The notes under the pieces are model-generated. The model was not told where the DNA came from and searched no databases. It saw only the letters and a list, made by a program, of their open reading frames with translations. From positions 1 to 28,061 of the IMG/VR virus record IMGVR_UViG_3300017781_000089: a stretch of 28,061 bases of DNA, one strand, 5' to 3'. This document shows positions 3 through 24,473 of the stretch, piece by piece. Position 1 is the stretch's first letter; each line of letters begins with the position of its first letter. Source of the DNA: a virus. Made by a program: the position numbers and the translations under genes.

Positions 3-3000
3 GCTGAACTTAAAAATATATCAGAACGTGCAGAACATTTCTTAGAATATTTTGGCAGCAAAGAAGGTTCGCCTAAAGGATTTTTAGAAGGATTAGCAAA
101 ACAATATAAAAATATATCATTAGAAATAGACCCATTTAAATACTATAATAAAAAAGATGTAGTGACTATGTTGCGTAGATTTAATCTTGAATTAGCAAAT
201 AATCCTTTATTGAAAGACCTTGATATTCTTGATACGTATTCTACGTTATTATCTCCAAAAGAACTAGACTTGATGATAGAGTCGGATGCTTTTGTGTATC
301 AACGTGCACAAGATGTTATAGGGATGCAATTAGCTATTAATCAAGCTGGTAAAGTTATTGACATTATGACACGCAATGGTATATCTCAAGAAAAAGCTAC
401 AAGAATTATGTCTGATATGGTAAAGAAAACATACGATATCAAACAAGATAGCTATGAAAGAAATAAAGAATTTAAAGAAAAAAGAACTAACAATATTAAT
501 AGATATATTTTCTTACATAAACAAGCCATTAAAGATGCTATAACAAAACTAGGGGGTGGTGCTAAATTAAAAGAAGTATTTAGAAAAGAAATAGACACTG
601 CTTACGATTTCTCTTTAATCGCTAATCCAATATCTAAAGATGGTATGAAAAATAGAAAAGAAATGAAATTTGCTGAAATAAATCAAAAAGAAATTAAAGA
701 ACAAATTAAAAAAATTAATGAAGAAGTAGAAACCTTAGGAGATAGACAATCAACACCAAGGTTAGAAAAATTGTATTCACAGTTGAATTACAAAATCGGT
801 AGATATAGTGGTCGTGTAGACTCTGTGATGCAAAGTCCTTTGGTTGAACCAAGTAGTATAAAAAAGTTTTATGCGTCTATGGACAAATTATTTGATATGT
901 CTAAAAAGATTAAATCAGATGAAACACCTAATGCAGTTAAAGAAGGTAGAGGCGTTGAAGAGGTTATTGCAAAAGAACGTACAAGCAGAGCAGACCAAAT
1001 AGAACAAACTACTACAGATTTAATAGAAGCTATGCCAGTAGTTGATGGAATTAAAATAGATTTAGAAAAAACAAAAATGGATATATTAAGTAAAAAAGAT
1101 ATTAATCCTATAGACATAGAGTTTTTAAATACCATGGAGATTATTAAAGACCGACCTGGCTATATAGATTATATAGGTAATATGTTTTTAGAATTTCAAC
1201 AAAACTTTTTAAGCAAAGCTGGTAAAGTTAATGAAGTTGAATTAAGAGATTTGCAATTATTTAATAAATATTTAAAAGATTTAATGGGTGCAGAAGGTAG
1301 CATTTTTAAACAAATTGAAAAAAGTAAAAAAAATGACGGACCAAAAGGTAAACATCACATCTTATTTTTTGGACAAGCAGAAAAAGCTATGCGTTCTGAT
1401 ATACAAAAAAGATTAACAGATGTTATGGTAACAGATAAAAATGGTAATGTTGCTAAGGTTAGTTTAAAAGTTCCCACTACTACACTAACTAAAAATTTAG
1501 AAGCTGCTAGATTTTTTCACAGATTAGACAATAGATTAAAAGTTGTAATACAAGAACGTATGCAAGAAGAGTTCAAGTTTTTAAATAAAGATGATGCAAA
1601 CATACAACGTGGTGATTTTGATGCAATATTTACTGCTGTAGTTTTTGAAAAACAAATGCGTTTGTATGATATACAGCAAAAAATTACAGACCAAGGTTCA
1701 AGCAAAATAAATGATGCTGAGCAATATGTTTATTCAGAATATAAAAAGTCTCAAAAAGTTTTAAAAAAATTAAAAGATAGTAATACTATTTACAAATTAA
1801 TAGACCCTAAAGTTAAAGGAGAGTTTAAAGATACTACTCCACAAGAATTGTTTAATCGTATTGATAAATCAATTACTACATTACTTACACAGGTTAAAAA
1901 TGATATTATTGTAAGTAAACATCCTCTTATAAAAGATATTTTAATTAAAGAAGGTAAAAAGGTTAATGAATTTAAACCTGAAAAAGAATTAACTAAAGAT
2001 GACCCTGGATTTGAAATACAAGAATTAAATAAATTGTTATTAGATAAAAATGGAATTATGAGTGACATGAGTAAAGTGGATATACTTTATAAAAAACTTT
2101 TAGAAACTGAAGTGTTAGACCCTCTTAACATTGTAAACAAAATGTTTTCATTAACTGATGCTAGATATATTGAATACCAAAAAGGTGTTAGTGATATGAT
2201 AATAGAAAAATTTCCAAATATAAATTTACAAAAATTAAATAAATCTCAAGTAAAATTAATTAAAGAATATAAAAAGTTTTTAGAGGAAGTGTATCCTTAC
2301 GAAAAAAATATATCTATTGGTAGATTTGAATCACCAGATGGTATGGTTAGAGATTATTTTCCACAATTAGGACAATATAATATTAAAAGTAATTGGCCTA
2401 AACTTAAAGAATACGTTGAAAATAATATTGAAGGATATAGAAAAGGAATTGTTAGCTCTAAAGATTTACCTGGTAATTTAAGAAGACAATACGACACTGG
2501 TTTATTAAGTTTTCCTGCAGCTAAAGCATTAGCAGTAGAAGCACGTAGACAAATGCTAGATAGAATGCGTATTACAGGACTTTCTGGTGACCTTGCTACT
2601 TCGGAAGTAGCTAATTCATCTATATTGAGTACAAGACCACAAAACTGGTTACAACAAACTACTGGTAATTTAAAATCAAGAAGTGCAGATTTTATGCCTT
2701 TTTATGACACGAGTGTAAATGCTTTAGATATGTATATGGGTTCTGTGTATAGAAATTATATTGACGTAGTAAGAAATATTAGAGTAGATAATAATATCAG
2801 AAGATTTGAAAAAGAAAAACCATTTGGTGAATTTACACCTAATTGGTCTGCTTATATGAGAGATGCACACAACAATATAGCTGGATACCCTTCTTTACGT
2901 AACTTTGACTTACATGGTATTAAACAAAAAGAATTAAGTACTATTAATCGTTACATTGAATCTGATTTAGATTTTGTAAAGATGAAAGCAACAAATGTAG

Positions 3001-4601
3001 AAAAAAGATTTTTACAAGATATGCAAGAACAATTAGGACTTACTGCATTGCAGCAACATAAAATATTACAAGAAATTAAAAAACCAGGTAAACAATTAAT
3101 GGGTCCAGAATTAACTAAAGAAGCATTAAAAGAAAACTATAAAGAATTAGCACAATCTAAAAATGTAAATAAAATAAATAGGTTTGGTACTGCATACCAA
3201 GTGTTTAGTGATGAAGCTTTAGTAAATGTAGCAGAACGTTTTAATGATGCTTTTGGTGGTAACTTATTTAAAAATGCACCTAAAGAAGGTAAAGCTAGAA
3301 GATTTTATTTAGCTAATAAATTCAAAAACTTCAGCACACTTGAAGGTAAATTTGAAATGTTATCATTACTATCTCACCCTAAAACAGCTATTACTAATTT
3401 TTATGGTGGTTTTACAAATACCATATCTGATGTTGGTTGGGAAGCATTTAGACAAGCTTCTTCTTCTAAGTGGCTGTTAAGTAATGCTTTTCCAAACGCT
3501 GAGTATTTTTCAGTAAATTCTAAAGGTAAAAGAATTAAACAACAAATAAAAAGCAAAGAAGATATCAATAGATTTATGGCAGAACTTGGTGTATTTGAAG
3601 ACATGTTTATACAGGAAGCATTTTATTCTAGTAGACTATCTAAGATAAATAGTAAACGTTTCTTAAATGAACTAGCAAGAAGATTGAATGGTAAAATTAA
3701 AGAAGGTGAACTATCACTAGAAAATGAAGCAAATTATAACAAAGTACAAAAACAAACATTAAAAGAAGTAGCTAAAGAGTTTGGTATTCTTGACAATGTA
3801 GTTGAAAAAGGTGCTTTTTTTATGAGACGTTCTGAAATGATATTACGTAGTACTACTTGGTTAGCTAATTACATACAAGGTAGAAATTTATTTATTAGAG
3901 ATATGGGTGTTGATTTAGCTTTTAATGACCCTATGTTATTAAACTATGCAAGTAAAGGTGTTAAAGCTTCTCAGTTTATTTATCATGCTGCAGAAAGACC
4001 TAATTTTAGTAATACATCTTTAGGTAGAGTTATGACACGTTTTCATCCCTATGCTTGGAATAGTATTAAAAGAAGAATTGATATATATAAAGGTGCTGGA
4101 TATGAATCTTGGAAAGGTGGATTATCTACACAAAAAGCACAACGTCAATTTACTGCAGATGTTATGGCACTATCATTAGCAAGTATATTTACTGCTAGTA
4201 TATTTGAATATGCATTATCACCACCTATGTCTTGGATGCAAGATACAGCATCATTAATCTTTGGTGATGAAAAAGCAAGAGATAGAGCTTTCTTTAGTCA
4301 ATATCCTATACCAGCATTAGCACCATTAAGTATTGTAACGCCACCTATTGGTCGTTTTGTATTATCACCATTAACAAGTATTATAAATGGTAATTGGGAT
4401 GATTTCTATAATTATCAATTATATACATATTTCCCATTTGGTAGATTAGGAAGAGATTTATCTAGAACTGCTAAGTCTCCTGCTATGTTTTTAGACTTTA
4501 TGACTGGTATTCCTCAACATCAAATACATTCTTATACAAGAGATATGATTTCTGACTATAATCAAGTAATTGATGAAGAAGAAAACACAGAATTAGATTA
4601 A
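3..4601 (+). CDS. Giant internal virion protein (5'-truncated by window edge)
   Basis: The reading frame is open from base 3 through the stop at 4601, so at least 1,532 residues are visible and the true start lies left of the window. The Met at 162 is therefore probably internal. The protein is rich in Lys, Glu, Asn and Ile, with long charged helical stretches likely to form coiled coils over its first two-thirds. Near the C terminus there is a more hydrophobic segment with many Pro and aromatic residues (PPMSWMQD, then QYPIPALAPL). Very large proteins of this kind lie after the tail genes in many podoviruses. There they are internal core or ejection proteins that follow the DNA into the cell. 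I see no clear lysozyme or protease motif. Its strand matches the structural operon at the right end of the window. The role is inferred from size, composition and context. Confidence 0.6.
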   Translation, partial: AELKNISERAEHFLEYFGSKEGSPKGFLEGLAKQYKNISLEIDPFKYYNKKDVVTMLRRFNLELANNPLLKDLDILDTYSTLLSPKELDLMIESDAFVYQRAQDVIGMQLAINQAGKVIDIMTRNGISQEKATRIMSDMVKKTYDIKQDSYERNKEFKEKRTNNINRYIFLHKQAIKDAITKLGGGAKLKEVFRKEIDTAYDFSLIANPISKDGMKNRKEMKFAEINQKEIKEQIKKINEEVETLGDRQSTPRLEKLYSQLNYKIGRYSGRVDSVMQSPLVEPSSIKKFYASMDKLFDMSKKIKSDETPNAVKEGRGVEEVIAKERTSRADQIEQTTTDLIEAMPVVDGIKIDLEKTKMDILSKKDINPIDIEFLNTMEIIKDRPGYIDYIGNMFLEFQQNFLSKAGKVNEVELRDLQLFNKYLKDLMGAEGSIFKQIEKSKKNDGPKGKHHILFFGQAEKAMRSDIQKRLTDVMVTDKNGNVAKVSLKVPTTTLTKNLEAARFFHRLDNRLKVVIQERMQEEFKFLNKDDANIQRGDFDAIFTAVVFEKQMRLYDIQQKITDQGSSKINDAEQYVYSEYKKSQKVLKKLKDSNTIYKLIDPKVKGEFKDTTPQELFNRIDKSITTLLTQVKNDIIVSKHPLIKDILIKEGKKVNEFKPEKELTKDDPGFEIQELNKLLLDKNGIMSDMSKVDILYKKLLETEVLDPLNIVNKMFSLTDARYIEYQKGVSDMIIEKFPNINLQKLNKSQVKLIKEYKKFLEEVYPYEKNISIGRFESPDGMVRDYFPQLGQYNIKSNWPKLKEYVENNIEGYRKGIVSSKDLPGNLRRQYDTGLLSFPAAKALAVEARRQMLDRMRITGLSGDLATSEVANSSILSTRPQNWLQQTTGNLKSRSADFMPFYDTSVNALDMYMGSVYRNYIDVVRNIRVDNNIRRFEKEKPFGEFTPNWSAYMRDAHNNIAGYPSLRNFDLHGIKQKELSTINRYIESDLDFVKMKATNVEKRFLQDMQEQLGLTALQQHKILQEIKKPGKQLMGPELTKEALKENYKELAQSKNVNKINRFGTAYQVFSDEALVNVAERFNDAFGGNLFKNAPKEGKARRFYLANKFKNFSTLEGKFEMLSLLSHPKTAITNFYGGFTNTISDVGWEAFRQASSSKWLLSNAFPNAEYFSVNSKGKRIKQQIKSKEDINRFMAELGVFEDMFIQEAFYSSRLSKINSKRFLNELARRLNGKIKEGELSLENEANYNKVQKQTLKEVAKEFGILDNVVEKGAFFMRRSEMILRSTTWLANYIQGRNLFIRDMGVDLAFNDPMLLNYASKGVKASQFIYHAAERPNFSNTSLGRVMTRFHPYAWNSIKRRIDIYKGAGYESWKGGLSTQKAQRQFTADVMALSLASIFTASIFEYALSPPMSWMQDTASLIFGDEKARDRAFFSQYPIPALAPLSIVTPPIGRFVLSPLTSIINGNWDDFYNYQLYTYFPFGRLGRDLSRTAKSPAMFLDFMTGIPQHQIHSYTRDMISDYNQVIDEEENTELD

Positions 4602-4624
4602 ATATACCATTAATACCAGTTTTA

Positions 4625-4695
4625 GCTTTAAACACATACTACAATAAACTATCTATATTTAGGCGATACTTATGTCGAATAATTTATTTTAAAGC
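4625..4695. terminator. Inverted repeat in the convergent intergenic region (possible bidirectional terminator)
   Basis: The gap 4602-4708 lies between a rightward gene and a leftward gene that converge. GCTTTAAA at 4625-4632 is complementary to TTTAAAGC at 4688-4695. A second pair, AATAAA and TTTATT, nests just inside. The arms are AT-rich and the loop is long, so this is a weak terminator candidate supported mainly by its position. I see nothing else in this gap. Confidence 0.3.
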
Positions 4696-4708
4696 CTTGT
4701 AGCCCTAT

Positions 4709-5098
4709 TTAAATGGACTGTTTTTCTACGATTCTTAAATTTTCTATCAATCTTTCTATATTTACAAGAATTCCTAGCGATGTGTTATTATCACCACCAC
4801 GAACTTTATCTACTGCTAATCTACTTTTTACTAAATACTTTAAAGTCTTTTTTAATAACTCTGTATCTATAACTATCATGCAGCCTTCTTGTATTTTATA
4901 TACCCAAGTTTTAGCTTTGGTAGTTGCAAGACCAGATTGTTTACCTCTAGATTTATATTCAATATATATATTACCAGTCTCTATTGTTTTTCTATCGCTT
5001 TTTATTTCAACAGTAGAATCTTTTACTATTTCAGCAAATTCTGTTTCTGCTTTATTTCCAAATTTTAAATCATATTGAAAATCTGAATTATACTCCAT
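4709..5098 (-). CDS. PD-(D/E)XK nuclease-like protein
   Basis: A 129-residue protein with the layout of a small restriction-endonuclease-like fold. Acidic residues near Glu18/Glu20 are followed by VEIKSDRK (residues 30-37, a beta strand carrying E-x-K). Next come TGNIYIEYKS (41-50) and a Ser/Gly/Thr-rich loop, then KTWVY. Similar small proteins are common in phages and are usually left unnamed. A role in DNA processing or host DNA degradation is plausible. The start overlaps the 3' end of groES by 11 bp, so the two are probably translationally coupled. It is the last gene of the leftward operon. Fold assignment is by motif only, and the active site is not certain. Confidence 0.5.
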   Translation of the reverse strand: MEYNSDFQYDLKFGNKAETEFAEIVKDSTVEIKSDRKTIETGNIYIEYKSRGKQSGLATTKAKTWVYKIQEGCMIVIDTELLKKTLKYLVKSRLAVDKVRGGDNNTSLGILVNIERLIENLRIVEKQSI

Positions 5099-5348
5099 CT
5101 TCTAAAACCAGAAGTATATTTTGCTGTCTCATAATAATATATTCTATTTTATCTATTTCCTGAACAACAAATCCAGGACCAAACAAAACCTTGTCACCAA
5201 TATTTAATTCTTCTGCTTTACTACCCATAGCTACTACTTCACCAACGTTTTCTTTTATAGCTACGTCTGTTGTTAGAATAATACCTGCTTCTGTTTTATT
5301 TTCTCTACTTTGTTGTTTTATTACTACTTCATCTCTTAATGGTTTCAT
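5088..5348 (-). CDS. groES: GroES-like co-chaperonin (Cpn10)
   Basis: An 86-residue protein matching Cpn10 along its length. The N-terminal strand is MKPLRDEVVIK. A mobile loop follows (about residues 14-27) with the hydrophobic tripeptide IIL at 23-25, equivalent to the IVL of E. coli GroES that docks on GroEL. Then come VGEVVAMG, the NIGDKVLFGPG turn, and a closing strand near ILLVLEDG. It is about 11 residues shorter than E. coli GroES, and the roof loop between VAMG and NIGDK looks shortened. Phage co-chaperonins such as T4 gp31 work with host GroEL to fold the capsid protein. No GroEL is present here, so host GroEL would be required. The Shine-Dalgarno AAGGAG lies at 5353-5358, directly after a structured RNA (5361-5507) that may control it. 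Confidence 0.92.
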   Translation of the reverse strand: MKPLRDEVVIKQQSRENKTEAGIILTTDVAIKENVGEVVAMGSKAEELNIGDKVLFGPGFVVQEIDKIEYIIMRQQNILLVLEDGV

Positions 5349-5360
5349 CTTATCTCCTTT

Positions 5361-5507
5361 TTATTCCCCTTCGTTATCTAATTTAGTGCCAACCAATTAG
5401 CAATACGATAGCTTTGCAAAAAATCTCTCACTTAATCGATAACCATTAACTAAGTAAGCGTGGACCTAACCACTCGGCTCCTTACACCGCACTGTGAAGG
5501 GGAATAA
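5361..5507 (-). promoter_or_regulatory. Multi-branched structured RNA leader of groES
   Basis: On the leftward transcript, bases 5507-5496 and 5372-5361 form a perfect 12-bp closing stem (UUAUUCCCCUUC with GAAGGGGAAUAA). Inside it are further helices. GUAAG/CUUAC encloses GUGG-UUAGGU-CCAC. CUUA-G-UUAAU pairs with AUUAA-G-UGAG across an 8-nt loop. GCAA/UUGC forms a small helix, and CUAAUU/AAUUAG closes an 11-nt loop. The element starts 9 nt after the stop of the preceding small gene and ends 2 nt before the AAGGAG of groES. That is the position of a cis-regulator of translation or a processing element. The arms do not resemble a known riboswitch that I recognise, and there is no U-run for a terminator. 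Confidence 0.65.
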
Positions 5508-5516
5508 TCTATTTAT

Positions 5517-5654
5517 CTAATTAAACATCTCGTGTATCTTCTCTAACATATTTTTAATAATCTTATGTTCTCCCTCTGATACCCAGGGAGCTTTTTTGAA
5601 ATTAAGTAATGCTGACCTTAATATCAATAACTCTTCTTTGTTGAATTTAGTCAT
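5517..5654 (-). CDS. Small conserved-looking phage protein, 45 aa
   Basis: A short ORF reading MTKFNKEELLILRSALLNF... to ...KIHEMFN, followed by TAG. It fills the space between the 76-residue gene and the groES leader and overlaps the former by 8 bp. The predicted protein is almost wholly helical, with a helix (residues 6-20), a Pro-Trp turn (APWVSEGEH) and a second amphipathic helix (31-44). This two-helix pattern is common in tiny phage-encoded proteins of unknown function. Coding is supported by clean amino-acid composition and the tight overlap. Function is unknown. Confidence 0.6.
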   Translation of the reverse strand: MTKFNKEELLILRSALLNFKKAPWVSEGEHKIIKNMLEKIHEMFN

Positions 5655-5877
5655 CACAACACTCACAATTCCCTACTCTGGGTTGAAAACTATCATGTGA
5701 ATCTTCTGATGCTCTAAGTATTTCATCATCTGACTTACCAGCATTCTCAAATTTATAAAGTATATCTACCAATGTATCTTCATCTATATTCTTTACTATA
5801 CGTTTTACAGATACAAGCTGCGATATTCCTTTCATCAATTCTGCAATCTCTTTACTTGTCAAGCTTGCTTGTGCCAT
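5647..5877 (-). CDS. Unknown small protein with Cys-rich C terminus
   Basis: A 76-residue protein, predicted helical over residues 5-60 (SKEIAELMKGISQLV, then DEDTLVDILYKFENAG, then DDEILRASED). It ends in a short Cys cluster, CECCDD. The start is well supported by AAGGAG 7 bases upstream of the ATG, and the gene overlaps the end of the nuclease gene by 26 bp. The terminal Cys residues could bind a metal or form a redox or tethering site, but nothing identifies a function. It belongs to the replication operon by position. Confidence 0.65.
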   Translation of the reverse strand: MAQASLTSKEIAELMKGISQLVSVKRIVKNIDEDTLVDILYKFENAGKSDDEILRASEDSHDSFQPRVGNCECCDD

Positions 5878-6187
5878 CTTTTATCTCCTTCATCATTTTT
5901 ATCCATCTTTCTAGTGGCATTATTATTAACGCTTCTTTCCTATCCATTCTAGTAACAACACAATCTACATCATCTCCATGAAAATCAGGGTATAGCCATT
6001 GTGCTACTTTTTTCTTTCTTTTTGCTTGTATGGTAACATCTTCTACAAGAACATCAACAACCTCACTAAAACCTAGCGACCTTCCATCAGAAGCATAGGC
6101 TCTCTTTGCTGAGAGCCCTGCTTCCTTAGACTTGTTGACGATTTCTCGTTCAAGTGTATTACCACGTATCTTATTAGGATGCGTCAT
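5852..6187 (-). CDS. Holliday-junction-resolvase-like endonuclease
   Basis: A 111-residue protein with the pattern of archaeal-type Hjc/PD-(D/E)XK resolvases. RGNTLEREIVN (residues 8-18) supplies Glu13. KRAYASDGRS follows, then the catalytic-type strand SEVVDVLVED (Asp45) and QAKRKK (54-59), giving the Q-x-K signature. The C-terminal half contains DCVVTRMDRKEALIIMPLERW, a strand-helix unit typical of the fold's end. Resolvases cut branched DNA made during recombination-dependent replication and clear it before packaging. It sits in the same operon as Erf-type, SSB-like and helicase genes. Its start overlaps the 60-residue gene upstream by 14 bp. The family call is from motifs only. Confidence 0.6.
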   Translation of the reverse strand: MTHPNKIRGNTLEREIVNKSKEAGLSAKRAYASDGRSLGFSEVVDVLVEDVTIQAKRKKKVAQWLYPDFHGDDVDCVVTRMDRKEALIIMPLERWIKMMKEIKDGTSKLDK

Positions 6188-6356
6188 TGTTCCACAACCT
6201 AACCGTGAATGATAACTCTATGGGTCCAATACCAAACATGAATCCAAAGTGTTGTCCTTCCAAATTCTGATATGAAACACCAATATGAAATATCCAAAGT
6301 AATGTTATCTTTTGCATCATAATGTGTTCATTATCAGTTGTCCTTATTTCTATCAT
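6174..6356 (-). CDS. Unknown small protein, 60 aa
   Basis: The ATG overlaps the stop of the primase-helicase as ATGA (4 bp), and the gene's end overlaps the resolvase-like gene by 14 bp, so it is embedded in a tightly packed operon. The protein is rich in aromatic and hydrophobic residues (LLWIFHIGVSYQ, then FGFMFGIGPIELSFTV). This suggests alternating beta strands or a membrane-associated segment rather than a classical single helix. There is no recognised domain. The packing supports a real gene; the function is unknown. Confidence 0.55.
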   Translation of the reverse strand: MIEIRTTDNEHIMMQKITLLWIFHIGVSYQNLEGQHFGFMFGIGPIELSFTVRLWNNDAS

Positions 6357-8134
6357 AATAACTCCTTAAAAGTCATAGTTTCAAAGTCAAATGCACACGT
6401 CATTTCAAAGCGACCTTCATCTCGTGATTTCTCACTACATATGATTCTTGCTCTTTCATCACGTTTACCTTTAACCATTAAAACTTTATCTGCTTTCTGT
6501 ACAATGTTAGTACTACCCTTTAATGAATGCAAGGATATGGTATTGCCTGCTGCAGATACTTTGTTTACGTGGTGCACAGCAAACACAATTATATTGTGCT
6601 TTTGTGCCATTTCTTTTAATGCACCTATGACCATATTCTGTCTTTGAATCTCACCATCAAATCTATCTACGTGTACCTCATCAGTAGTATCTACTACTAA
6701 TATGTTAGGTTCGTGTAGTGCAACAACTTTACGTATTGCTTCTATTTCTGGTGCTACTGTCATTAACTTAATATGTCCTAGCATATGTTCAAATGTAATA
6801 TCTGGGTCTGCTTTAAACTGGTCATAAACCCAATGTTCATTTTGATTCGTTGCAATCTGTATGAATCGTCTGAATGTTAAATGTTCATGCATTTCTAAAG
6901 ATAGGAAAAGCGTTTGCTTATCTATCTTCGTTACTATGTTTTGAACAAATGCTGATTTACCCATACCTGTATCACCAGAGAACACGACTAGTTCTCCAGG
7001 TTTAATAATATAATCAGGTGTATTCCATATATCAGCTAAATTAACAGACATTTTAGTCATATCATTTGCAATGTATGCTTTAAATGCATCTTCTAATTCG
7101 TTTACATCTCTAATCTCTAAGGTATAATCCTTACGTTTAAAGTGTATACATTTAGGGTCACAATATTCTGCCATAATTACATCTTGACATCCATATTGGT
7201 AGTTCCCATCGTAGATATTACTTGTGCTTCTTATTATTTCTTCATCATCTAAGCTGCCACTACCCCATTGTAACATACCATTTAAGGCAACTACATAAGG
7301 AATACCAGCTCGTTTATAACTACTAGCCATACGCATCAACTTCATATTACGTGAACCTTTAGTGGGTCCTTCATTAAATACGTGTTGCATACAAGTTACT
7401 ACTGATGTAGTATCTGTTTGCCTATAGTTAGAATTAGTTACTGCTTCTGATGTAGATACAATAAGATGTTGTAAGTAAGGTTCTACTTCACTATCCTTAT
7501 TTAATGTATCATACCAATTATCTTCTACCCATTTATCTTCATAAACAGGTTTACTTTGTGCCATTTCACATACGTTTTCATAAGTCAAATTCCATATTAA
7601 ATCATAAGGAATAAAAACTTTATATAATTTAGTTTTGGTATTTAAACTCCAAGGTGCTCTAATGATACGTGTTTTATCAAAGATACTATCTGCAAATGAT
7701 AAATGTTCTTTCATAGTGAGTTTTACTTTTTCGTGTAAAACTCTGCTAGGTTGAAAGCCAAATACATTTAATAGTTCTATATGATATCCAGTACCACTAA
7801 ACCATATGTTAACGTGTGATTTATCTATACCTAGTTCATCTATTTCTTTTAGACATTCTAGTAGATAAGGTTGAAATTGGTCATCAGGAATGTTTCCTTT
7901 ATCAATATCTAATATTATTTTATCAATATAGGTAAGACCATCAAATCCTTTAACACTTTTATGTTGCTCTACATAATCCTTAAGAGTTTCATCAAATGCA
8001 TAATAACTTTTATACATTTCTCCACTCCAAGCATTACTACGAACTATGGTGTTATATTCCTCAATGGTCCCAACTTGATTTCTGTTAGATACACTACCTC
8101 GAATAATTTCGACTATAGCTTCTCTATTTTCCAT
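6353..8134 (-). CDS. Fused AEP-type primase and DnaB-like replicative helicase
   Basis: A 593-residue protein with two parts. The N-terminal half has the three archaeo-eukaryotic primase (AEP) motifs. The first is IILDIDKG with Asp76 and Asp78. The second is FSGTGYH at 112-118, the S-x-H nucleotide-binding motif. The third is a DKTRIIRAPWSLN block at 153-165. A Cys/His group (Cys316, Cys325, Cys329, His331) may bind metal. The C-terminal half is a RecA-fold helicase domain with Walker A GDTGMGKS (387-394), Walker B ILVVD (478-482), a FAVHHVNK motif (518-525) and a late Arg-containing SEKSRDEGRF segment. It would both prime and unwind at the fork, replacing separate host DnaG-type and DnaB functions. 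The start overlaps the preceding gene by 22 bp. This is a strong assignment for both domains. Confidence 0.85.
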   Translation of the reverse strand: MENREAIVEIIRGSVSNRNQVGTIEEYNTIVRSNAWSGEMYKSYYAFDETLKDYVEQHKSVKGFDGLTYIDKIILDIDKGNIPDDQFQPYLLECLKEIDELGIDKSHVNIWFSGTGYHIELLNVFGFQPSRVLHEKVKLTMKEHLSFADSIFDKTRIIRAPWSLNTKTKLYKVFIPYDLIWNLTYENVCEMAQSKPVYEDKWVEDNWYDTLNKDSEVEPYLQHLIVSTSEAVTNSNYRQTDTTSVVTCMQHVFNEGPTKGSRNMKLMRMASSYKRAGIPYVVALNGMLQWGSGSLDDEEIIRSTSNIYDGNYQYGCQDVIMAEYCDPKCIHFKRKDYTLEIRDVNELEDAFKAYIANDMTKMSVNLADIWNTPDYIIKPGELVVFSGDTGMGKSAFVQNIVTKIDKQTLFLSLEMHEHLTFRRFIQIATNQNEHWVYDQFKADPDITFEHMLGHIKLMTVAPEIEAIRKVVALHEPNILVVDTTDEVHVDRFDGEIQRQNMVIGALKEMAQKHNIIVFAVHHVNKVSAAGNTISLHSLKGSTNIVQKADKVLMVKGKRDERARIICSEKSRDEGRFEMTCAFDFETMTFKELL

Positions 8135-14650: not shown

Positions 14651-14854
14651 TTAGTATTTATTCAACATATCATAATGCGTTTGTAATTGCTCTGCTGTAT
14701 CGACTGTAAAATACCAGTTCTCAAGCACTCTTGCACTACATTTTCTTTGATTAAAGTTGAATCTTTTTCTACCATATTGGATATTGTATTTAATATTACA
14801 TCTTTCTATCCAATAGTTTTTATTCTTAATATTAAACTCGTGTTCTTTTATCAT
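14651..14854 (-). CDS. Unknown small basic protein, 67 aa
   Basis: A short protein rich in Lys, Arg, Asn and Tyr (YNIQYGRKRFNFNQRKCSARVL), ending in a helix, TAEQLQTHYDMLNKY. The middle reads as basic strands followed by a helix, so nucleic-acid binding is possible. The ribosome-binding site is a weak AGAGAG. The gene lies between two structured gaps. No family is recognised. Confidence 0.5.
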   Translation of the reverse strand: MIKEHEFNIKNKNYWIERCNIKYNIQYGRKRFNFNQRKCSARVLENWYFTVDTAEQLQTHYDMLNKY

Positions 14855-14893
14855 TATTACTCTCTTTCTTTATTTTGTTTTAGTATTAGCTGT

Positions 14894-14913
14894 GCTAGCT
14901 CTTTTCAGCTAGC
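14894..14913 (-). promoter_or_regulatory. GCTAGCT hairpin
   Basis: GCTAGCT (14894-14900) and AGCTAGC (14907-14913) form a 7-bp stem with loop GAAAAG on the leftward RNA. It lies 39 nt upstream of the ATG at 14854. It is the last of three structures in the 14855-15099 gap. Confidence 0.5.
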
Positions 14914-14931
14914 TACAATGATTTATTATTT

Positions 14932-15030
14932 AATTAAAACACTCAAGTCTTTCAACTATCGGATTCTCGGTTTATTTACAGTAGGTTCCAGTAGTTACTA
15001 TTCAACCTATCTATTTCGAGTGTTTTAATT
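14932..15030 (-). promoter_or_regulatory. 13-15-bp closing stem of a structured intergenic RNA
   Basis: AATTAAAACACTC (14932-14944) is fully complementary to GAGTGTTTTAATT (15018-15030). On the leftward strand it extends by a G.U (14945/15017) and an A-U pair. The loop contains TAGGTT/AACCTA (14982-14987 with 15004-15009) closing a further small hairpin. Confidence 0.6.
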
Positions 15031-15052
15031 CTATTACATTTTTTTACTTGTA

Positions 15053-23657: not shown

Positions 23658-24473
23658 ATGAGTATTAAAACACAAATAGAAGCATACACTGGTGACATAG
23701 ATAGTCCAGACATTACTGCACAAGCAACCCAATTTGCAAAAGACGGTGTAAGATATATTTATTCTGTAGTGTTGACTAACCCTGAAATGGGAGAAAGATT
23801 GTCAGCTAATACAAACTTAAATACTGCATCACCAACATTGCCACTGACAAATGTAATGTCATTAGATTACGTTCTTAGAAATGACGGTGCTATTGATAGA
23901 CCTTGTATTGAGGGCGAACCTTCTATGGCAGGAGCATATCTTGACCCAGATAGTTTACATAGAGGAACTATAACTAGTCCTGTATACTACATTAAAAATA
24001 ATGTATTAACTATTGTACCTGCACCTGTAGATGCACAACTTGGTAAAGTAGGGAGTGTAACACCAGATACTACATTTACTTTAGATAATGAATACACTGC
24101 TTTAACAGGATTATTACCAGAACTGTATGTAGGTGTTACATTGTATGCAGCAGGAATGGTATTACTAACTAAAATGAATGCTATTGGAAAACCTACAGAT
24201 ATAAATTTAACAACTATTGCAGCTTCTGCTAGTGTTGATACAGAGGGTGATAGAGTAGATATTACTAAATGGTTTAACATTGTTGGTGATTATATACAAG
24301 ATGAAGATGTAGAACTAGCATCTGCTTATTTGTCAAAGATAAATGCATATTTACAAAATTATCAAATGGAATTAGCTGGAGACCAATCACAATACCAACA
24401 GTATGAATCTCAATACGTGAAAGTTAGTCAGTCCTTAATTGCATTTTTAGAACCTTACATGGGTGGAGCTTAG
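23658..24473 (+). CDS. Probable head-tail connector protein
   Basis: A 271-residue protein in the head-tail joining position. The N-terminal half is helical (DITAQATQFAKDGVRYIYSVV), then comes beta-rich sequence (LPLTNVMSLDYVLRNDG, then SPVYYIKNNVLTIVPAP). The second half has helical segments (VGVTLYAAGMVLLTKMNAIG; VELASAYLSKINAYLQNYQM). Adaptor-type proteins with a helical core and an inserted beta part are common after the coat gene in podoviruses. Its ATG directly follows the preceding stop, and its own stop is 2 bases before the next ATG. Assignment is by context and layout, and a tail-tube role is an alternative. Confidence 0.5.
   Translation: MSIKTQIEAYTGDIDSPDITAQATQFAKDGVRYIYSVVLTNPEMGERLSANTNLNTASPTLPLTNVMSLDYVLRNDGAIDRPCIEGEPSMAGAYLDPDSLHRGTITSPVYYIKNNVLTIVPAPVDAQLGKVGSVTPDTTFTLDNEYTALTGLLPELYVGVTLYAAGMVLLTKMNAIGKPTDINLTTIAASASVDTEGDRVDITKWFNIVGDYIQDEDVELASAYLSKINAYLQNYQMELAGDQSQYQQYESQYVKVSQSLIAFLEPYMGGA

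Follow-up and report, generated by a model that had tools for sequence, protein, structure and literature searches.

Ahead of the groES gene of an uncultured virus lies a stretch of DNA whose transcript can fold into a multi-branched RNA, and it raises the question of whether this RNA is a switch for groES or something the virus carries on its own account. The window, a 28-kb virus contig of 28,061 nucleotides, holds this element at positions 5361–5507. An earlier note, made from the sequence of the window, had considered it, of the structures there, the most like a riboswitch, a thermosensor or another cis-regulator, standing ahead of a gene whose host homologue is heat-regulated. Since the element stays in place when groES is absent, we take it for a probable independent RNA of the virus and not for a switch of groES.

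The structured RNA of the window

As groES lies on the minus strand, the RNA was read as minus strand, from 5507 to 5361. This orientation is also indicated by G-U pairs in helices P1, P2 and P3 across homologues; the opposite strand folds too (z −4.3), because a long stem must do so. The parts of the element are as follows.

5361–5507, minus strand: whole structured RNA, 147 nt, fold z −3.76, homologues in about 75 contigs
5496–5507, minus strand: 5′ strand of the closing stem P1, UUAUUCCCCUUC, 12-bp perfect pairing with 5361–5372
5361–5372, minus strand: 3′ strand of P1, GAAGGGGAAUAA, 12-bp perfect pairing with 5496–5507
5475–5489, minus strand: P2 hairpin, CGGU-GUAAGGA-GCCG, conserved AAGGA within the loop, covariation
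5460–5473, minus strand: P3 hairpin, GUGG-UUAGGU-CCAC, compensated versions in other homologues
5427–5458, minus strand: P4 hairpin, predicted fold, conserved loop AAUGGUUAUCG (5447–5437), letters read directly, alignment A9
5378–5400, minus strand: P5, CUAAUU/AAUUAG, enclosing the core UUGGUUGGC (5396–5388), which is conserved family-wide
5354–5358, minus strand: groES Shine-Dalgarno sequence AGGAG, 2 nt past P1, letters read directly

The inverted repeat that forms P1 is the sole long perfect pair of distant arms within positions 4600–6400. The closing stem is present as the earlier note described it, a perfect 12 bp whose end at 5361 stands 2 nt ahead of the Shine-Dalgarno sequence, which starts at 5358. 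The minimum free energy of the 147-nt RNA is −44.9 kcal/mol, equalled by none of 200 shuffles, and adding 84 nt of flanks weakens the fold z to −1.8. The single-sequence fold signal thus comes from the element itself and is of moderate strength; it is comparison that carries the case. All four internal helices proposed from the letters occur in the single-sequence fold, and comparison backs P2 (5489–5486/5478–5475), P3 (5473–5470/5463–5460) and P5 (5400–5395/5383–5378) in addition to P1; P4 is limited to the window's subgroup. How the helices nest is less certain, as the predicted minimum-energy arrangement, with CAGUGCGGU/AUCGUAUUG paired round the rest, would compete with P2.

Homologues in related viral contigs

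A search with groES returned 19 loci; in most of them the leader is similar, but P1 differs in sequence. About 80 further loci came from pattern scans and from using the adjacent RusA-like resolvase as a query, which retrieved L115–L194. About 75 related viral contigs carry homologous elements, with P1 stems of 9–29 bp, element lengths of about 80–180 nt and fold z values of −3.1 to −6.3. A recognisable element directly follows the replication operon in 71 of the 74 contigs with a close resolvase. The remaining three comprise a diverged copy that has P1–P3 (L153), a contig that ends inside the gap (L139) and a locus whose genome, G007, carries a translocated element (L149). Each contig searched whole yielded one convincing copy, except for the record of L137 and L235 (G015, 89,793 bases), in which two resolvase-plus-element loci lie about 44 kb apart and which may be a chimera or a join of two genomes.

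The covariance model R1 misses the window's own copy, in which a long insert separates P3 from P5, and scores its relatives L160 and L173 at 26–28 bits (E 0.016 and 0.008). We assign the window's copy to the family by its shared place, P1, P2, P3, P5, core and good subgroup alignment; its inner P1 is common to L160, L164 and L166.

In the collections searched, the family appears confined to one virus clade. A blastn search of the phage collection gave no credible relative of the element. Ten exact-motif matches in bacterial genomes were judged to be chance, as they fall mostly in open frames, with P1 scores that lie within or close to the null range and with weak covariance-model scores. Salinibacter phages with a 43% identical resolvase have merely about 10–30 nt after that gene, and hence no element. 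In two distant contigs with a 41% resolvase (L189 and L192, 3850–3990), a P1-like stem surrounds AAATATGCGGTTGGCGCTGATATT; it gives no match to R1, and is a possible remote member of the family.

Comparative support for the helices

The inner 10 bp of P1 pair in 43 of 43 distinct sequences (430 pairs, 409 Watson-Crick and 21 G-U), against 51% when partners are swapped. Since P1 was taken as the best stem, complete pairing is partly built in, and a random-site null was made to address this bias. P1 scores range from 23 to 56 with a median of 30, compared with a null median of 18 and a 99% point of 25.5; the null is exceeded in most cases, and the five lowest scores fall inside its tail. MAFFT misaligned P1, so the covariance model was built without it.

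For P2 and P3 together, 95.9% of cells in 48 model-aligned sequences are paired versus 77.7% after shuffling, with 82 double-change cells versus 22 and a score of 0.511 versus 0.197 that none of 500 shuffles reached. Sliding the alignment by one column cuts P2/P3 pairing to 37–53%. The alignment tested was itself fitted to the structure; the MAFFT seed alignment agrees on score and double-change cells. Within P2, 98.2% of cells are paired, four of the five pairs show double changes, and an independent swap test gives 11.6 with the own partner versus 1.6 with swapped ones. P3 changes from GUGG/CCAC to GUCA/UGAC in L164, and to CAGG/CCUG and GGGG/CCCC elsewhere. Judged by these comparisons, the element represents a structured RNA family with helices that covary beyond shuffled and slid controls.

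Inside this framework, the GGUUGGC core is retained in nearly all homologues, with departures in L117/L235, L154/L156, L179 and L153 (for example, GGUAUGGC), and the P5 stem varies by subgroup. A second, short architecture has no P2 or P3 and consists of the core UUGGUUGGCUACUAAAA, P5 and a P6 hairpin found in 11 distinct versions with the loop UUAGUC; its invariant segments ACUAA and UUAGU could form a pseudoknot. Another pseudoknot candidate, between the P2 loop and CCUU downstream of P3, was suggestive in single cases and was rejected, as own partners scored 10.2 and swapped ones 10.1. A helix competing for the 5′ strand of P2 is energetically preferred in subgroups A and B and weakly enriched (13.8 versus 12.1), which raises the possibility of a two-state fold that alternates between P2 and this helix.

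A closing stem of free sequence round a short conserved core recalls small ribozymes, and the ends of the element are inverted repeats. That it is a self-cleaving ribozyme, or a small mobile-element RNA with P1 as terminal inverted repeats, is nevertheless very unlikely: Rfam gives no ribozyme match, the single copy per genome and the single syntenic place are unlike a mobile element, and matches in bacterial genomes are at chance level only.

Genomic position and neighbouring genes

Three genes define the surroundings of the element in the window.

5088–5348, minus strand: groES/Cpn10, 86 aa, outside the RNA (Cpn10 PF00166 E=8e-15, phrog_3188)
5852–6187, minus strand: RusA-like resolvase of the replication operon, constant upstream neighbour (phrog_244 E=1.8e-7)
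162–4601, plus strand: convergent 1479-aa gene, constant neighbour on the other side

The element is placed in the gap between the replication operon, at its 3′ end, and the last late gene, which converges on it. The 1479-aa late protein has no PHROG or Pfam match, though it is conserved clade-wide; in tblastn searches its C-terminus matched downstream of nearly every element, the exceptions being L133, where the contig end is near, and the relocated copy L236.

What follows the element is far more variable. Downstream open reading frames fall into 12 clusters, and among the 61 elements with a callable frame groES comes next in 18 and other genes in 43. In 13 contigs, only 56–137 nt separate the element from the aligned C-terminus of the convergent gene, which leaves no room for a gene, as L235 shows directly; some elements are followed by a second structured RNA instead of a gene. 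Even within the window's subgroup, the next gene is groES, a phrog_13596-like gene, another gene or none; the phrog_13596-like gene resembles window positions 4709–5098 and is of the same family by eye. With the query used, groES was undetected in 18 of 29 element-bearing contigs, many of them 43–50 kb and not necessarily complete. Two close relatives of the window's RNA, in G010 and G011, have groES with another gene coming first. In G007, groES (14790–15038) has no element, which instead lies about 9 kb away at 24031–24115, before another gene. The element does not always precede groES, then, nor is groES accompanied by the element throughout: the element is bound to its genomic position, and its association with a heat-regulated gene merely reflects which accessory gene adjoins.

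Several further features were seen at these loci. In the genomes of L017 and L018 (G007:14790–15038), groES adjoins terminase genes, another place than in the window. A stretch like ATCAGCCACCGAAAAAA occurs just after the element, in several reading frames, in L173, L178, L180, L217, L219, L224, L228 and L235; it may be coding or a DNA motif. Just upstream of some variants there is an extra hairpin or inverted repeat (L180 at about 3080–3160, L178, and L235:1008–1042), and ahead of the relocated element, at L236:873–1007, AAAGCATATGAATACC and GGTATTTATATGCTTT form a long inverted repeat that, together with a T run, could be a terminator or another RNA. The second structured RNA, about 200–260 nt long, directly follows the element and has its own varying closing stem (L126:3348–3610, with fold z −5.05; L121; L147:3115–3310; L150; L154:3125–3325; L155:3375–3605; L196). 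It conserves AGUAAGUAAAGGCUAU and GAUAGAUGAUUAUACAUAGAAA, an exact motif present in 8 viral contigs and absent from the window, and in L008 and L013 it has no Rfam match.

Accessibility of the translation start

In most contigs, a Shine-Dalgarno sequence and a start codon lie within 11–20 nt of P1, as expected of a 5′ leader (a riboswitch, a thermosensor or an autoregulatory site) controlling groES or whatever gene follows, and groES is the next gene in 18 of the 61 elements with a callable frame. We consider such a leader unlikely. The genes that follow elsewhere are unrelated to groES, 13 contigs have none, and groES occurs by itself at L017/L018; a riboswitch leader would keep a consistent downstream gene or pathway, which we did not find among the 12 clusters.

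The predicted folds speak likewise. At 15 °C the Shine-Dalgarno sequence is predicted to be unpaired with a mean of 0.80 over 42 leaders, compared with 0.48 for shuffled leaders; at 37 °C the value is 0.88, and for the window it is 0.99 at 15 °C. An RNA thermometer would pair this site or the start codon in the cold and free it on warming, a pattern absent from these predictions. With its Shine-Dalgarno sequence predicted open, P1 would insulate the site rather than hide it, and a thermosensor or masking switch is unlikely.

A role at the end of the operon

The main rival is a serious one. The element may act in cis at the operon end, stabilising the replication mRNA at its 3′ end or, by put-like antitermination through RNA polymerase, governing read-through to the accessory genes, of whatever kind, and towards the convergent late operon. 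We regard this as a real possibility, less than probable. It accords with the constant place between the converging replication and late operons, with retention where no gene follows, and with the following Shine-Dalgarno sequence being kept open in prediction. A possible analogy is the put RNA of phage HK022, whose structure works on the machinery of transcription (PMC9378689). The put RNA does so in cis and on early transcripts, whereas our element stands at an operon 3′ end and lacks the promoter-proximal location that is the norm for put sites. The G007 copy, which has moved to a site flanked by two other genes and about 9 kb away from groES, also weighs against a cis role, as does the finding that no intrinsic terminator was called right after the element in L176, L179 and L157, although visual inspection of L176 and L179 shows a hairpin and T run downstream. 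Unrelated downstream genes often have their start codons 11–16 nt past P1, a spacing that could be a cis effect and that compact packing explains too.

Relation to known RNA families

The earlier note recognised no known class in the element, and Rfam 15 bears this out: at the gathering threshold there were no matches in the window and 15 loci, and permissive thresholds gave nothing credible, the best sub-threshold scores being far under the cut-off. No tRNA or tmRNA was found near the element. In the literature searched we found no description of it; the comparison covered Rfam families, and some published motifs, such as Ocean-VI (PMC2864571), stand outside Rfam.

GOLLD and ROOL are, like our element, structured noncoding RNAs from phages and metagenomes, of unknown function (PMC12286853). 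They are several hundred nt long, often lie by tRNA islands and form cages, whereas the window's element has 147 nt and matches neither Rfam model, and no tRNA lies nearby. PreS, a phage sRNA of about 88 nt, targets dnaN of the host and aids phage replication (PMC12197685); it too is a small RNA encoded by a phage, but an Hfq-dependent base-pairing one, whereas our element is conserved by fold and has long P1 stems. The manA and wcaG motifs, structured RNAs from marine metagenomes and phages (PMC2864571), have Rfam entries and occupy the 5′ UTRs of metabolic genes, and the element matches neither at gathering score; manA-II gave a sub-threshold fragment only, on the wrong strand. By these searches the family is new, within a broad kind, structured phage noncoding RNA, that is already known (PMC12286853, PMC12197685).

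Discussion

The RNA covaries in structure, is nearly universal in its clade and is independent of groES. For a near-universal, gene-independent and relocatable fold with conserved loops, a stand-alone RNA is the simplest reading. We thus favour a phage noncoding RNA that is self-contained, is released from the transcript of the replication operon and acts in trans, while judging the case for it to be evenly balanced. The RNA would come last in the replication operon, at its 3′ end, be transcribed with it and be excised, most likely at the long closing helix P1. Once free, it would act in trans on a partner from the host or the phage (RNA, ribosome or protein), to which it would offer two conserved unpaired motifs: UUGGUUGGC, displayed by the P5 loop, and AAGGA, displayed by that of P2. 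Accessory genes such as groES and small unknown genes come and go between the RNA and the convergent late operon. Counting against action in trans, the position is conserved (one relocation in about 75), as a cis role also predicts. No promoter or terminator of the element's own could be shown. A scan of the window for sites complementary to the core gave nothing beyond chance.

The element is kept or traceable in 74 of 74 close relatives examined, which indicates an important viral function. Its description adds to the known RNAs a strongly covarying structured family absent from Rfam, and corrects its reading as a groES leader. Tentatively, it may be a new class of noncoding RNA, near-essential across a clade of uncultured viruses and acting in trans while the genome replicates or the host is taken over; the GGUUGGC core would be the centre of at least two architectures, P1-P2-P3-P5 and, where P2 and P3 are missing, P1-P5-P6.
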